Assembly: GCF_026261605.1 (NCBI RefSeq)
Contig: NZ_CP102486.1
Location: forward strand, 2,666,001-2,730,000
Origin: Dechloromonas sp. A34
Lineage (GTDB): Bacteria; Pseudomonadota; Gammaproteobacteria; Burkholderiales; Rhodocyclaceae
Direction of reading: 5' to 3'
DNA length: 64,000 nt
The position numbers and the translations under genes are program-made. Positions 52,310-59,546 of the stretch are shown here, one piece after another (position 1 is the first letter of the stretch; every line of letters begins with the position of its first letter). The notes under the pieces are model-generated. The model was not told the origin of the DNA, made no database searches, and saw only the letters and a program-made list of their open reading frames with translations.

Positions 52310-52486
52310 GTGCCGTTGATGGTTCCCCACCCAGGGATTAAAAGGGAATCCGGTGCCGAGTCTGACTCGAATTCCGGGGCTGCCCCCGCAACTGTAATCG
52401 GCGAGCGCTTCGCCAACACATGCCACTGGATGCGTCCGGGAAGGTAGGTGAAGCGCGCTGAACCGAGAGCCAGGAGACCTGCCGCA
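52310..52486 (+). ncRNA. Cobalamin riboswitch upstream of nrdA
   Basis: The conserved core is clear: GGGAATCCGGTG near 52344, GGGGCTGCCCCCGCAACTG with TAATCGG near 52377-52401, GCCACTGG near 52422, GGGAAGGTAGG at 52438, and the B12 box AGCCAGGAGACCTGCC (52468-52483). It should bind adenosylcobalamin and lower nrdA expression. No terminator follows; control is likely at translation, via the hairpin at 52641-52670. Confidence 0.93.
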
Positions 52487-52640
52487 ACGAACTTTCTTTC
52501 ATGGTTTTGGGGCGGGGTGTCCCTGACGAGAGGTTTATTGCGTGTCTTTCTTGCCGTTCGTTCGTCTGGCCGATTCGACCACGGGTTGCTACCCGCTGGC
52601 GTCGCGGCTGGTCGCGTCGAATTCCGGCCTGGCGCAACGT

Positions 52641-52670
52641 CGATTCTCCGCCCCCCGATACGGAGAATCG
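52641..52670 (+). promoter_or_regulatory. Shine-Dalgarno-sequestering hairpin of the nrdA leader
   Basis: CGATTCTCCG (52641-52650) pairs perfectly with CGGAGAATCG (52661-52670), 10 bp, around a 10-nt loop. The 3' arm contains the GGAG of nrdA, 2 nt before the TTG start. It probably is the expression platform of the B12 riboswitch. Confidence 0.75.
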
Positions 52671-52672
52671 CC

Positions 52673-55433
<2,761 letters not shown>

Positions 55434-55437
<4 letters not shown>

Positions 55438-57470
55438 ACGTCAACCAACCGCAAGCGATGACCATGCTTTCCCCGTCGCTGCCGCGTCGCATCCTGCGCC
55501 GTGACGGCTCCGATGTGCCCTTCGAAGCCGACCGTATCGCCTCGGCCCTGGCCCGTGCCGGTGCGGCCAGCGGCGAATTCGATGCCGACGAGGCGCAACT
55601 GCTGACCGCCCGCGTACTGAAGTTCCTCCGCCATCGCTACGGCCACTCGGCGCCGGGTATCGAACAGGTGCAGGACGTCGTCGAGAAGACCCTGGTCGAC
55701 GCCAACCACCTCGCCACCTTCCGCGCCTACGTCGCCTACCGCGACCAGCACCGCCGCCTGCGCGCGGACCGCAAGACGCTGGTCGATGTCGCCACCGCCA
55801 TCGACGAATACGTCGACCGTGCCGACTGGCGCGTGCGGGCCAACGCCAACCAGGGTTATTCGCTGGGCGGCCTGATCCTCAATGTCTCCGGCAAGGTCAT
55901 CGCCAATTACTGGCTGTCGCACGTCTACCCGCCGGAGATCGGCCAGGCGCATCGCGACGCCGACCTCCACATCCACGACCTCGACATGCTGTCCGGCTAC
56001 TGCGCCGGCTGGTCGCTGCGCCAGGTGTTGTTCGAGGGCTTCAACGGCGTGCCCGGCAAGCCGGAAGCCGATCCGCCGAAACACTTCTCCAGCGCGCTGG
56101 GCCAGATGGTCAATTTCCTCGGCACCCTGCAGAACGAATGGGCCGGCGCCCAGGCTTTCAGCTCCTTCGACACCTACCTGGCGCCTTTCGTCAGGAAGGA
56201 TGGACTTTCCTACGAAGCGGTGCGCCAAGGCATGCAGGAATTCATCTACAACCTCAACGTGCCGTCGCGCTGGGGAACCCAGACGCCATTCACCAACCTG
56301 ACCTTCGACTGGGTCTGCCCGGAGGATCTGCGCGAGCAGGTGCCGGTCATCGGCGGCGTCGAGATGCCCTTCGCCTACGGTGACCTGCAGGCCGAAATGG
56401 ACCTGATCAACCGCGCCTACATCGAGGTCATGAGTGCCGGCGACCGTCGGGGCAGGGCCTTTACCTTCCCGATTCCGACCTACAACATCACCGAGGATTT
56501 CCCGTGGGAGTCGGACAACGCCGAACGGCTGTTCGCGATGACCGCCAAGTACGGCCTGCCTTACTTCCAGAATTTCCTCAACTCGGACATGAAGCCCAAC
56601 CATGTCCGTTCGATGTGCTGTCGCCTGCAGCTCGACCTGCGCGAGTTGCTCAAGCGCGGCAACGGCCTCTTCGGTTCGGCCGAGCAGACCGGCTCGATCG
56701 GCGTCGTGACCATCAACTGCGCCCGCCTCGGCTATCTTCACGCCGGCAATGAGGCGACGCTGATGGCCCACGTCGACCGCCTCGCCGACATGGCCCGCGA
56801 CAGCCTGGAACTCAAGCGCAAGGTCGTGCAACGCCTGATGGACGACGGTCTTTTTCCCTACACCCGGCGCTACCTCGGCACCTTGCGTAACCATTTCTCG
56901 ACCATCGGCGTGAACGGCATCAACGAGATGGTGCGCAATTTCACCGCCGGCGCCGCCGACATCGCCAGCCCCGAGGGCCACGCGCTGGCGCTGCGCCTGC
57001 TCGACCGCTTGCGCGACAAGATGCGCGACTACCAGGAAAGCACCGGCAATCTCTACAACCTGGAGGCGACGCCAGCCGAAGGCACGACCTACCGTTTCGC
57101 CAAGGAGGACAAGAAGCGCTGGCCCGCCATCCTGCAGGCCGGCACGGCGGACAAGCCGTACTACACCAATTCGTCGCAACTGCCCGTCGGCTTCACCGAC
57201 GACCCGTTCGAGGCGCTGACCCGGCAGGACGAACTGCAGACGCGCTACACCGGCGGCACCGTGCTGCACCTCTACATGCGCGAACGCATTTCCAGCCCGG
57301 CGGCCAGCCGGCAACTGGTACGCACGGCGCTGTCGCGCTTCCGGCTGCCCTACATCACGATCACGCCGACCTTCTCGATCTGCCCAAAACACGGCTACCT
57401 GGCCGGCGAGCACGAGTTCTGCCCGAAGTGCGATGACGAAATCCTCGCCCGGCGCGGCCAGGCACATTGA
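55434..57470 (+). CDS. nrdD: Class III (anaerobic) ribonucleotide reductase, catalytic part without glycyl-radical motif
   Basis: A 678-residue NrdD. The ATP cone lies at residues 15-105 (RRDGSDVPFEADRIASAL), and the 10-stranded barrel follows with DLHIHDLDMLSGYCAGWSLR, TFPIPTYNITEDFPW and VRSMCCRLQLDL (active-site Cys). The zinc site near the end reads CPKHGYLAGEHEFCPKC. The protein then stops at residue 678, without the RVxGY glycyl-radical loop that normally follows. That loop is on the next gene. Its start overlaps the corrected nrdA stop (ATGA). Confidence 0.9.
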
Positions 57471-57499
57471 AATTCCCCCCACTGCGAAAGGAAGAAACC

Positions 57500-57673
57500 A
57501 TGTCTAAAAAGAAGTCCCAAGCACTCCTGAACGACGCCGAGCGCCAGCGCTGCGAGGTGTGGACCCGCGTCATGGGCTACCACCGGCCGGTTTCCGAGTT
57601 CAACCCGGGCAAGCAGAGCGAGCACGGCGAACGCCGGCACTTCGTCGAGCCGTGCCCGGCATCGCATGCGTGA
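57500..57673 (+). CDS. Stand-alone glycyl-radical subunit of class III RNR
   Basis: A 57-residue protein: MSKKKSQALLNDAERQR, then CEVWTRVMGYHRPVSEFN, with Gly26 in the RVMGY motif that carries the stable radical in NrdD. It has its own strong ribosome site, AAAGGAAGAAACC, 29 bp past the nrdD stop, so it is not a simple frameshift product. It should dock on the NrdD barrel and be activated by NrdG, whose gene overlaps its end by 8 bp. Confidence 0.8.
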   Translation: MSKKKSQALLNDAERQRCEVWTRVMGYHRPVSEFNPGKQSEHGERRHFVEPCPASHA

Positions 57674-58328
57674 CGCCGAACTGGTGGTGGGCGGGCTGAC
57701 GCCCTTCACCACCATCGACTTCCCCGGCCGGCTGGCCGCCGTGGTTTTCTGCCAGGGTTGCCCGTGGCGCTGCGGTTATTGCCATAACCCGCACCTGCAT
57801 TCCCCGCAGGGCAGGGAAAGGCCGTGGAACGAAGTGCTCGACTGGCTGGAGACCCGGCGTGGCCTGCTCGACGGCGTCGTTTTCAGCGGCGGCGAACCGC
57901 TGCTGCAACGTGGCCTTTGCACCGCTCTCGGCGAAGTTCGGGCGCGCGGCTTCGCCACCGCGATGCATACGGCCGGCATCTACCCGGAACGTCTGGCGGC
58001 CGTACTGCCGGCGCTCGACTGGGTTGGGTTCGACGTCAAGGGGCCGTTCGAGGACTACCGCCGCATCACCGGCGCCGACGGCGGCGAAACGGCGCTGGCT
58101 GCGCTGGATGTCCTGCTCACTGCGGGGACGGACCACGAAATACGCTGCACCGTGGATACCGGGCTGCTGGATGCCGACGCGATTGCCCGGCTGGCACGCC
58201 AGTTGGCGGCTCGGGGTATCTCGCGGCTCGTTCTGCAGTCTTGCCGCGGGGTCGGGCAGCCGGCACAACTGCCCGACGCTCTGCTCGACGCAGCGGAGGC
58301 CTATCTGCCGCAGGTCGAATCGAGATAA
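57666..58328 (+). CDS. nrdG: Anaerobic RNR activating enzyme (radical SAM)
   Basis: A 220-residue radical SAM enzyme: CQGCPWRCGYCHNPHL holds the CxxxCxxC cluster motif (CPWRCGYC), and VVFSGGEPLLQ the GGE motif that contacts SAM. DWVGFDVKGPF and TVDTGLLD are typical of NrdG. It generates the glycyl radical on the small subunit at 57500. Overlap with that gene implies coupled translation. Confidence 0.92.
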   Translation: MRDAELVVGGLTPFTTIDFPGRLAAVVFCQGCPWRCGYCHNPHLHSPQGRERPWNEVLDWLETRRGLLDGVVFSGGEPLLQRGLCTALGEVRARGFATAMHTAGIYPERLAAVLPALDWVGFDVKGPFEDYRRITGADGGETALAALDVLLTAGTDHEIRCTVDTGLLDADAIARLARQLAARGISRLVLQSCRGVGQPAQLPDALLDAAEAYLPQVESR

Positions 58329-58367: not shown

Positions 58368-59546
58368 ATGAATGCACCATCCCCCCACGCCTTGTTCAAT
58401 GACTGGGAACTGCCGACACCCACGACCATGGAAACAGCGGCTGACCCCAGGGGCGACCCCGAAAAACCGGCAAAAACCGAAGTCGACCGTGGCATTTCGC
58501 CGGTCGCTCCGGTTCTCGCTCCGATCAACGCCGCCGACAAGCGCATCGTCAACGGCAAGGCCGACATCAACCAGCTCGCCCCGTTCAAATACCCGTGGGC
58601 CTGGGAGTTCTTCCTGAAGGCCAACCGTAACCACTGGACGCCGCTGGAAATCGGCATGGCGCAGGACGTGCACGACTACCACCACAAGCTCTCTGCCGCC
58701 GAGCGCCACGTCTTCGAGAACGTGCTGGCCTACCTGACGACTTCCGACATCCTCGCCATGCGCAACATCGGCCTGGCCGTCATGGAAAAGATGAGCGCGC
58801 CGGAAATCCAGATCTACCAGGCCCGCCAGGTCTACGAGGAAGCGCTGCATACCTGGTCCTACCAGCACTGCATCGAAAGCCTCGGTATCGACCAGCAGGA
58901 AATCTACAACCGCTACCGCGTCGTGCCGGAAATCCACGGCAAGATCGCCCTGGCCAACCGCCGGCTGGAGAAGGTGCTGCACCCCAAGGGTACTTCCTGC
59001 GGGGCGCGCTCGGATTTCGACCTCACCGACCGCGCCAAGCTGCACGAATTCGCGCTTTCGTACTTCTTCTTCGCGGTGATTTTCGAAGGCTGCTGGTTCT
59101 ACAACGGCTTCACCCCCGTCTTCGCGCTGCAACGGCGCGGCCTGATGAAGGGCGCCGCCGAGCAGCTGCAATACATCATGCGCGACGAGGTGCTGCACTG
59201 CGCCTTCGGCATCCGCGTCATCCGCGAACTGCTGATCGAGGAAAACCTGAGCCTCGACCCGGCCGCCCTGCGCGAATTGTGGGACGAAGCCGAAGCGGCC
59301 GAAACCGCCTACGCCGGCTACATCCTGCGCGAACCGATTCTTGGCTACAACGCCGAACTGCACGTCGCCCAGTTCCGCTTCATCGCCAACCGGCGGGCCC
59401 GCCAGGTCGGGGTCGCCGAGCCGTTCCCGGGGGCTGAAAACGTCCTGCCCTGGCTCGACGAACAGGCCAACCTGCGCAAGGAGAAGAACTTCTTCGAAAC
59501 GCGGGTGACGGAGTATCAGACGGGCGGGGCGCTGGCTTGGGGTTAA
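58368..59546 (+). CDS. nrdB: Class I ribonucleotide reductase small (radical) subunit
   Basis: A 392-residue ferritin-like NrdB. Metal ligands are seen in order: Asp in LTTSDILAMRN, Glu/His in YEEALHTWSYQH, Glu in AVIFEGCWFY, Glu/His in MRDEVLHCAFG. The radical Tyr stands four residues after that first His (HTWSY). The N-terminal 55 residues are extra. It would supply the radical to NrdA. Separation from nrdA by the class III genes is unusual. Confidence 0.92.
   Translation: MNAPSPHALFNDWELPTPTTMETAADPRGDPEKPAKTEVDRGISPVAPVLAPINAADKRIVNGKADINQLAPFKYPWAWEFFLKANRNHWTPLEIGMAQDVHDYHHKLSAAERHVFENVLAYLTTSDILAMRNIGLAVMEKMSAPEIQIYQARQVYEEALHTWSYQHCIESLGIDQQEIYNRYRVVPEIHGKIALANRRLEKVLHPKGTSCGARSDFDLTDRAKLHEFALSYFFFAVIFEGCWFYNGFTPVFALQRRGLMKGAAEQLQYIMRDEVLHCAFGIRVIRELLIEENLSLDPAALRELWDEAEAAETAYAGYILREPILGYNAELHVAQFRFIANRRARQVGVAEPFPGAENVLPWLDEQANLRKEKNFFETRVTEYQTGGALAWG

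Follow-up and report, generated by a model that had tools for sequence, protein, structure and literature searches.

We found that a 64,000-nucleotide stretch of DNA from Dechloromonas sp. A34 (contig NZ_CP102486.1; hereafter the window) carries a divided gene for NrdD, the oxygen-sensitive, anaerobic class III ribonucleotide reductase (RNR), with the C-terminal glycyl-radical loop encoded by a small gene of its own. We consider it very probable that this locus specifies an RNR of the NrdDh4 type in which the radical loop is a separate, exchangeable subunit. Because the loop lies on a second gene, in a reading frame that differs from that of the catalytic (barrel) gene, the locus is best described as a two-chain variant and not as a standard NrdD.

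The divided nrdD locus

The barrel gene (55434..57470 on the forward strand, as are all the features given here; ATG at 55434, TGA at 57468-57470) encodes 678 residues that score 1115.9 bits against NCBIfam NF006126, and the small gene (57500..57673; ATG at 57500, TGA at 57671-57673) encodes a putative glycyl-radical subunit of 57 residues. Against the Pfam NRDD profile PF13597, the barrel covers positions 2-531 of 562 (E 5.9e-173) and the small protein covers positions 531-562 of 562 (E 2.3e-8), so that the two jointly make up one NrdD profile. For the small protein, PF13597 is the sole Pfam match at E values up to 0.1, and PF01228 is not matched. The small protein bears WTRVMGYHRPVSEFNPGKQSEH, which includes RVMGY (residues 23-27; codons 57566-57580), and Gly26 (codon 57575-57577) is the expected radical residue. 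A profile search of the rest of this 4.76-Mb genome gave no second PF13597 match.

Next we examined the motifs of the barrel chain, which comprises an ATP-cone (PF03477; residues 19-107), a ten-stranded barrel and a zinc site, and is devoid of a glycyl-radical loop. By motif, Cys190 in GYCAGW (55995-56012; Cys codon 56001..56003) is likely the conserved beta-A cysteine, whose role in the reductive step is described in PMC4493059; GYCAGW is present in 156 of 157 split barrels and aligns with PYCFAY of T. maritima. The finger-loop cysteine motif MCCR, also assigned by motif, is found at residues 394-397 (56613..56624) and in all 247 barrels scanned, against 2 of 36 rows in a second list made up mostly of other NrdD types, and the sequence FGS (56670..56678) provides the Phe of the NrdDh4 finger loop. 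NrdDh4 is defined, in section 11 of PMC4493059, by MCCR in place of SCCR and by a Phe at the finger-loop position, and by this MCCR/Phe motif the window barrel would be of this type. Near the C-terminus, the zinc-ribbon ligands CPKH...CPKC (57381..57431) were placed by motif and by alignment to the T. maritima and P. copri NrdD; the predicted ligands are Cys650, His653, Cys663 and Cys666, and the chain ends 12 residues past the last of these.

The spacer between the two genes is 29 bases long (57471..57499) and holds a Shine-Dalgarno sequence, AAAGGAAG, at 57487-57494, a match of at least 4 bases that precedes the small gene's own ATG. The closest named relative (L107), with a barrel 93% and a small protein 88% identical to those of the window, has the identical split and ribosome-binding site (CGAAAGGAAGAAACCATG). 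At its other end, the small gene is overlapped by 8 bases by nrdG (57666..58328; TIGR02495, 186 bits), predicted to encode a radical-S-adenosylmethionine (SAM) activase of the NrdG2 type, and the order in the window, all in one direction, is nrdA, nrdD barrel, small gene, nrdG, nrdB. A first-pass annotation of the window had proposed a catalytic protein plus a 57-residue radical protein, the latter with its own ribosome-binding site and ATG 29 base pairs after the barrel; the sequence and the relatives bear out this split, the start signals are confirmed, and the coordinates are correct, with the overlapping nrdG to be added to the functional unit.

Next we considered whether the division is the trace of a single nrdD broken by an indel, through assembly or sequencing error or as a decaying pseudogene. 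The genome itself seems prone to indels, as the neighbouring nrdA has lost its conserved C-terminal cysteine tail to a frame break and the match to pyruvate formate-lyase (PFL) is broken over two frames and contains stops. Against this, the same split, with an ATG and a ribosome-binding site for the small gene, was found at 123 loci from many assemblies, and is shared by such independent assemblies as L107, the Azospira plasmid pAZI09 and the Cupriavidus necator plasmid pHG1. Furthermore, 3906 clusters of stand-alone size (about 31-100 residues) match the 57-residue protein at E <= 0.001 in a protein search. Comparison of the small gene with 10 relatives over 38 shared codons gave proportions of nonsynonymous differences (pN) of 0.02-0.11 versus proportions of synonymous differences (pS) of 0.16-0.66, by which the protein sequence appears to be kept by selection. 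Given the 123 loci and this selection, we rejected the indel artefact, the chance of which we judge to be negligible.

Recoding, by stop read-through or frameshifting, would join both parts into one NrdD. It could be invoked where the parts share a frame (30 of 123 loci), and at two loci (L015 and L016) one in-frame stop is all that divides them. Over the 123 split loci, however, the frame offset of the small gene relative to the barrel is spread over the three frames (52/41/30); spacers range from -38 to 298 bases, with a median of 31. When the best of several candidate starts was counted at each locus, all 123 small genes began with an ATG preceded by at least 4 matching Shine-Dalgarno bases (5 in 114), whereas such a match occurs at 2% of random positions. 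These start signals, spread offsets and varied spacers indicate a separate gene rather than read-through or frameshifting, and in three genomes the small gene is remote from the barrel. Recoding was accordingly rejected as well and seems to us only a shade less improbable than the indel. The split is confirmed as genuine and not an artefact.

Distribution and history of the split

To look for other genomes with the same split, as the first-pass annotation had suggested, we ran the NRDD profile against three draws of genomes, all of 90% completeness or more, which overlap and each count the window's genome, and classed the loci by hand from coordinates and, for some, by script. At the level of the order, 45 of 150 genomes had a match, with 38 split, 6 fused only and 1 with the small gene only. 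The class-level draw gave 26 matches in 232 genomes (19 split, 5 fused, 2 weak or partial), and the phylum-level draw gave 47 in 299 (12 split, 33 fused, 1 weak and 1, G577, left unassigned). One of the 12 phylum-level splits (G631, locus L101) belongs to another NrdD type, with RRITGY on the next short frame past the stop, and since this split is in a different type, splitting arose more than once. The split is clade-wide and recurs in many proteobacteria, which the first-pass annotation had not foreseen.

Some loci call for separate mention. In G577, a 0.9-Mb genome, the NrdD match (G577:C4:123722-125521) covers positions 1-562 with two in-frame TAA codons, and a motif scan of this region found no RVxGY-type loop. 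In four genomes of one family, f20 (G054, G101, G143 and G176), the split match is accompanied by another NrdD match of lower score, over positions 1-560. In G180, a genome with 7% contamination, we found just the small gene and NrdG, both on a 6.9-kb contig. G183 was rejected as a case of unlinked parts; the barrel is close to the end of a contig and the small gene close to the start of one, probably the result of a contig break.

Among the matches listed for named GTDB loci, 78 of 80 are split, 1 is fused and 1 has the small gene only, in a set chosen via the small protein and so biased toward split loci; by title, 22 of its records are from Pseudomonas and 3 from Stutzerimonas, and every one of these is split. 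Plasmid records of C. necator H16 carry the pair as annotated genes for 676 and 66 residues (pHG1), and the pair is also annotated in Azospira, Shinella and Sulfuricystis; the PLSDB table, which is incomplete, lists the barrel in Thiothrix and neither part in Cereibacter. The nrdDG genes of C. necator H16 are reportedly essential for complete denitrification. The first-pass annotation had tentatively mentioned small NrdD C-terminal proteins in some proteobacteria, and rightly so: NCBI annotates them under the name 'nrdD'. As the stand-alone gene is already in databases under this name, its existence is not new.

Within the genus of the window, only 1 of 35 other genomes, many of them incomplete, has the small protein. 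On a conjugative Azospira plasmid (L044), the order nrdA-nrdD-small gene-nrdG-nrdB is retained, with genes for an integrase and a Tn3 transposase after it. This rarity, together with the copy on a conjugative plasmid, indicates that the operon is probably mobile.

Next, we examined how closely the parts keep company. In the order-level draw, a stand-alone copy is present in 38 of the 38 genomes whose barrel is without a radical domain. Where the barrel is elsewhere, at about 9 kb (G043), at about 2.3 kb (G100) or on another contig (G092), the small gene still adjoins nrdG, which suggests that the activase travels with its substrate.

For the trees, barrels were trimmed before the radical domain. 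The first tree held 165 of 183 barrels (short rows, duplicate loci and L043 were left out) and suggested only two re-fusions; its label counts were off by one, as L101 had been entered as fused and is actually split. For a 247-row tree, 38 of the 165 rows were removed (distant NrdD types, L055, L061, L068 and L001, which duplicates the window) and 120 homologues were added from a list made for the fused L012, which favours fused forms; a smaller tree used 94 of the 247 rows. The number of state changes required was 10 in the 247-row tree and 8 in the 94-row tree (7-8 in 200 bootstraps, with at least 5 forced). Rooted with two fused, long-branched gammaproteobacterial outgroup rows, the larger tree suggests a single early split and nine fusions, and the smaller one a split plus six fusions and a re-split. 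Furthermore, the linkers in fused relatives vary in length, and some (L147, P0251) resemble the spacer plus the N-terminus of the small gene. By these comparisons, the barrel and the radical part appear to have been rejoined several times, and the existence of fused relatives means that splitting is not required for function.

These observations also bear on a different role for the small protein, that of a GrcA-like spare part for some other glycyl radical enzyme, with the barrel inactive or working otherwise. There is a precedent in GrcA/YfiD, as part of the text of PMC8683613 describes, and the genome does contain a PFL. This PFL, however, possesses its own radical domain, and the small protein matches the NrdD family and not PF01228. 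Moreover, a stand-alone copy accompanies every one of the 38 domain-less barrels and stands alone in 1 genome only, and the natural fusions that we inspected attach the radical part to this type of barrel. We regard this role as very unlikely, if somewhat less so than an indel or recoding.

The proposed two-chain enzyme

Under our reading of the locus as a class III RNR with a separate radical subunit, the barrel chain would bind nucleotides and hold the thiyl cysteine and the zinc ribbon, while the 57-residue chain would dock in the barrel as the missing C-terminus, with Gly26 reaching the finger-loop cysteine. NrdG, from the overlapping gene, would install the glycyl radical on Gly26, and the resulting two-chain enzyme is predicted to reduce ribonucleotides by means of this radical. 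After cleavage by O2, the small subunit (about 7 kDa) might be replaced and the 76-kDa enzyme kept in use. We modelled a relative with AlphaFold2, reading the stop as Gln so that both parts form one tethered chain, and compared the model structurally by VIA-align; the predicted position of the small part is that of the radical domain in solved NrdDs.

Several points weigh against this reading. The chain was artificially tethered and the alignment held fused homologues, so that docking is expected by construction, and the finger-loop stretch (about 396-422) has predicted local distance difference test (pLDDT) values below 60, in good part below 50, so that the Gly-Cys contact in the model is not trustworthy. 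The case for two chains is built from sequence and model. The polarity of the trees depends on the two long-branched outgroup rows, and the 94-row tree differs from the larger one (six fusions and a re-split versus nine fusions); the fused relatives are about 75-83% identical to the fused L012. Several named hosts are metagenome-assembled genomes (MAGs), with labels possibly wrong for L108, L110 and L159, and the choice of the best candidate start enters the Shine-Dalgarno count.

Compared with NrdDh4 as known from RNRdb2, NF006126 and part of PMC4493059, the window locus has the same barrel, ATP-cone, MCCR/Phe finger loop and CxxH...CxxC zinc site, and also the RVxGY radical loop and an adjacent NrdG; it differs in having this loop on a second chain, whereas the published descriptions, as far as their available text goes, place the glycine on the same chain. 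One review gives the position of the radical glycine in class III as 'in enzyme' (PMC4390871, in part), and a family-wide survey suggests that split domains may be a strategy peculiar to class II RNRs (PMC9669993, in part). We found no description of a split class III RNR in the literature searched, which did not include Siedow et al. 1999 (on pHG1) and Wei et al. 2014 (on the N. bacilliformis NrdD).

The first-pass annotation had likened the small protein to GrcA. This comparison works as an analogy, as GrcA/YfiD and Y06I of phage T4 are likewise small, free-standing glycyl-radical domains, radical-SAM-activated and also phage-borne (PMC8683613, in part). It fails in that these are PFL-type domains of about 14 kDa that repair an enzyme with its own domain, whereas the window protein is of the NrdD type, about 7 kDa, and its partner has none. 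Since the barrel is without a radical domain, it should depend on the small protein as an obligate subunit. According to the same partial text, only YfiD and Y06I have been validated as spare parts, and such parts have been speculated for other glycyl radical enzymes. The split class II RNR NrdJa/NrdJb of Pseudomonas aeruginosa is also an RNR in two chains, but belongs to another class, is cut elsewhere and has no chain bearing a radical glycine (PMC4860495 and PMC9669993, each in part). Class I NrdA/NrdB is alike by analogy only, with the radical on one chain and the chemistry on another; it differs by its metal/tyrosyl radical, its long-range transfer and its unrelated radical subunit.

Should this reading be correct, many denitrifiers, Pseudomonas species and C. 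necator among them, would have a two-chain anaerobic RNR, and the gene annotated as the reductase would be predicted to be inactive when expressed alone. Both radical installation and O2 damage would become open to study on a 57-residue protein.

Phage-borne copies and neighbouring genes

The most novel piece of this analysis is a phage-borne, orphan radical part. For this, we scanned IMG/VR with the query motif WTRVMGY or HRPVSEFN and took the best 80 of 140 relatives (L187-L266). None of the 80 loci has a barrel or NrdG match in its flanks (up to 6 kb). Likewise, 50 of the 80 records were searched whole, and in all 50, which may be fragments, the radical part is the sole NRDD match, and NrdG2 was matched in 0 of 50 with control genomes positive. 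Of the 64 distinct viral copies, 61 could be assigned a start, which is an ATG in 55; a Shine-Dalgarno match of at least 4 bases precedes 49 of the 61. RVMGY is present in all 55 distinct full viral cores, which says little about conservation since the scan itself required WTRVMGY or HRPVSEFN.

Four of the 50 records were checked against PHROGs. The small gene lies between virion structural and tail-fibre genes in G690, between tail-fibre genes in G714 (with a portal gene at E 1.4e-253), and next to an integrase gene in G720, a record with portal and terminase genes; in G691 it also adjoins an integrase gene, perhaps at the edge, with terminase and tail genes in the record. Three of these four records are clearly phages. 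Such phage DNA, with the radical part and without the enzyme, is new here and had not been foreseen in the first-pass annotation. Furthermore, a bacterial genome with its own split NrdD (G139) has an extra radical-part gene (L296:5689-5823) between endolysin and Rz-like spanin genes in a prophage lysis cassette, with holin and tape-measure genes nearby.

The phage copies might instead be host sequence picked up by accident, bacterial contigs that were misclassified, or genes that are not used. INPHARED gave no match to the window protein (E 1e-5) or to one viral copy (E 1e-2), so that carriage of the gene is not shown for any isolated phage, and IMG/VR gives no completeness for the records. 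The position in G691 is perhaps at an edge, an open-reading-frame listing shows a mixed, less phage-like strand pattern in G698 and G701, two more of the 50 records, and the RVMGY count was built in by the scan motif. Such explanations sit poorly with the copies in G690 and G714 amid structural and tail-fibre genes, with the integrase-adjacent copy in G720, with the lysis-cassette copy of L296, and with the Shine-Dalgarno matches at 49 of 61 starts; we consider them unlikely, though to be taken more seriously than the alternatives weighed for the window locus.

As a tentative proposal, to which we give slightly less than even credence, the radical loop would be a portable, exchangeable subunit: phages would carry the loop alone, as a few dozen codons in lysis, tail or integrase surroundings, and use the host barrel and NrdG, thereby restoring or seizing anaerobic deoxynucleoside triphosphate synthesis after the host copy has been cleaved by O2 or under stress. 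The loop would then be a spare part for RNR that is now the only part in many proteobacteria. By analogy, the phage copies may serve the host barrel much as Y06I of phage T4 is a spare part for PFL (PMC8683613, in part), and they render spare-part repair of RNR directly testable.

Additional copies were seen outside these records. An extra radical-part gene in a MAG (L144:5914-6189) lies near RNR large-subunit-like and RecE-like exonuclease genes, and the same MAG carries a split NrdD at L132; like L144, a further extra copy (L295) is near phage-like genes. PHROG 4132 (function not known, 179 positions) matches the radical part at positions 115-159.

The RNR locus of the window is flanked by class I genes, with the open frame of nrdA, the large subunit, upstream (52448..55378; NF005544, 1656.6 bits) and nrdB, the small subunit, downstream (58368..59546; NF005550, 339 bits). 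Near its end (window 55320-55437), nrdA loses its frame and terminates in AEKAGAGTMP-stop, where relatives continue to a CSIDNPECEACQ-type tail; a C-terminal tail of this type is found in another frame, by assembly error or a real lesion. The PFL match in this genome (G000:C1:2030793-2032918), in its two frames, is a second hint of an indel in the assembly.
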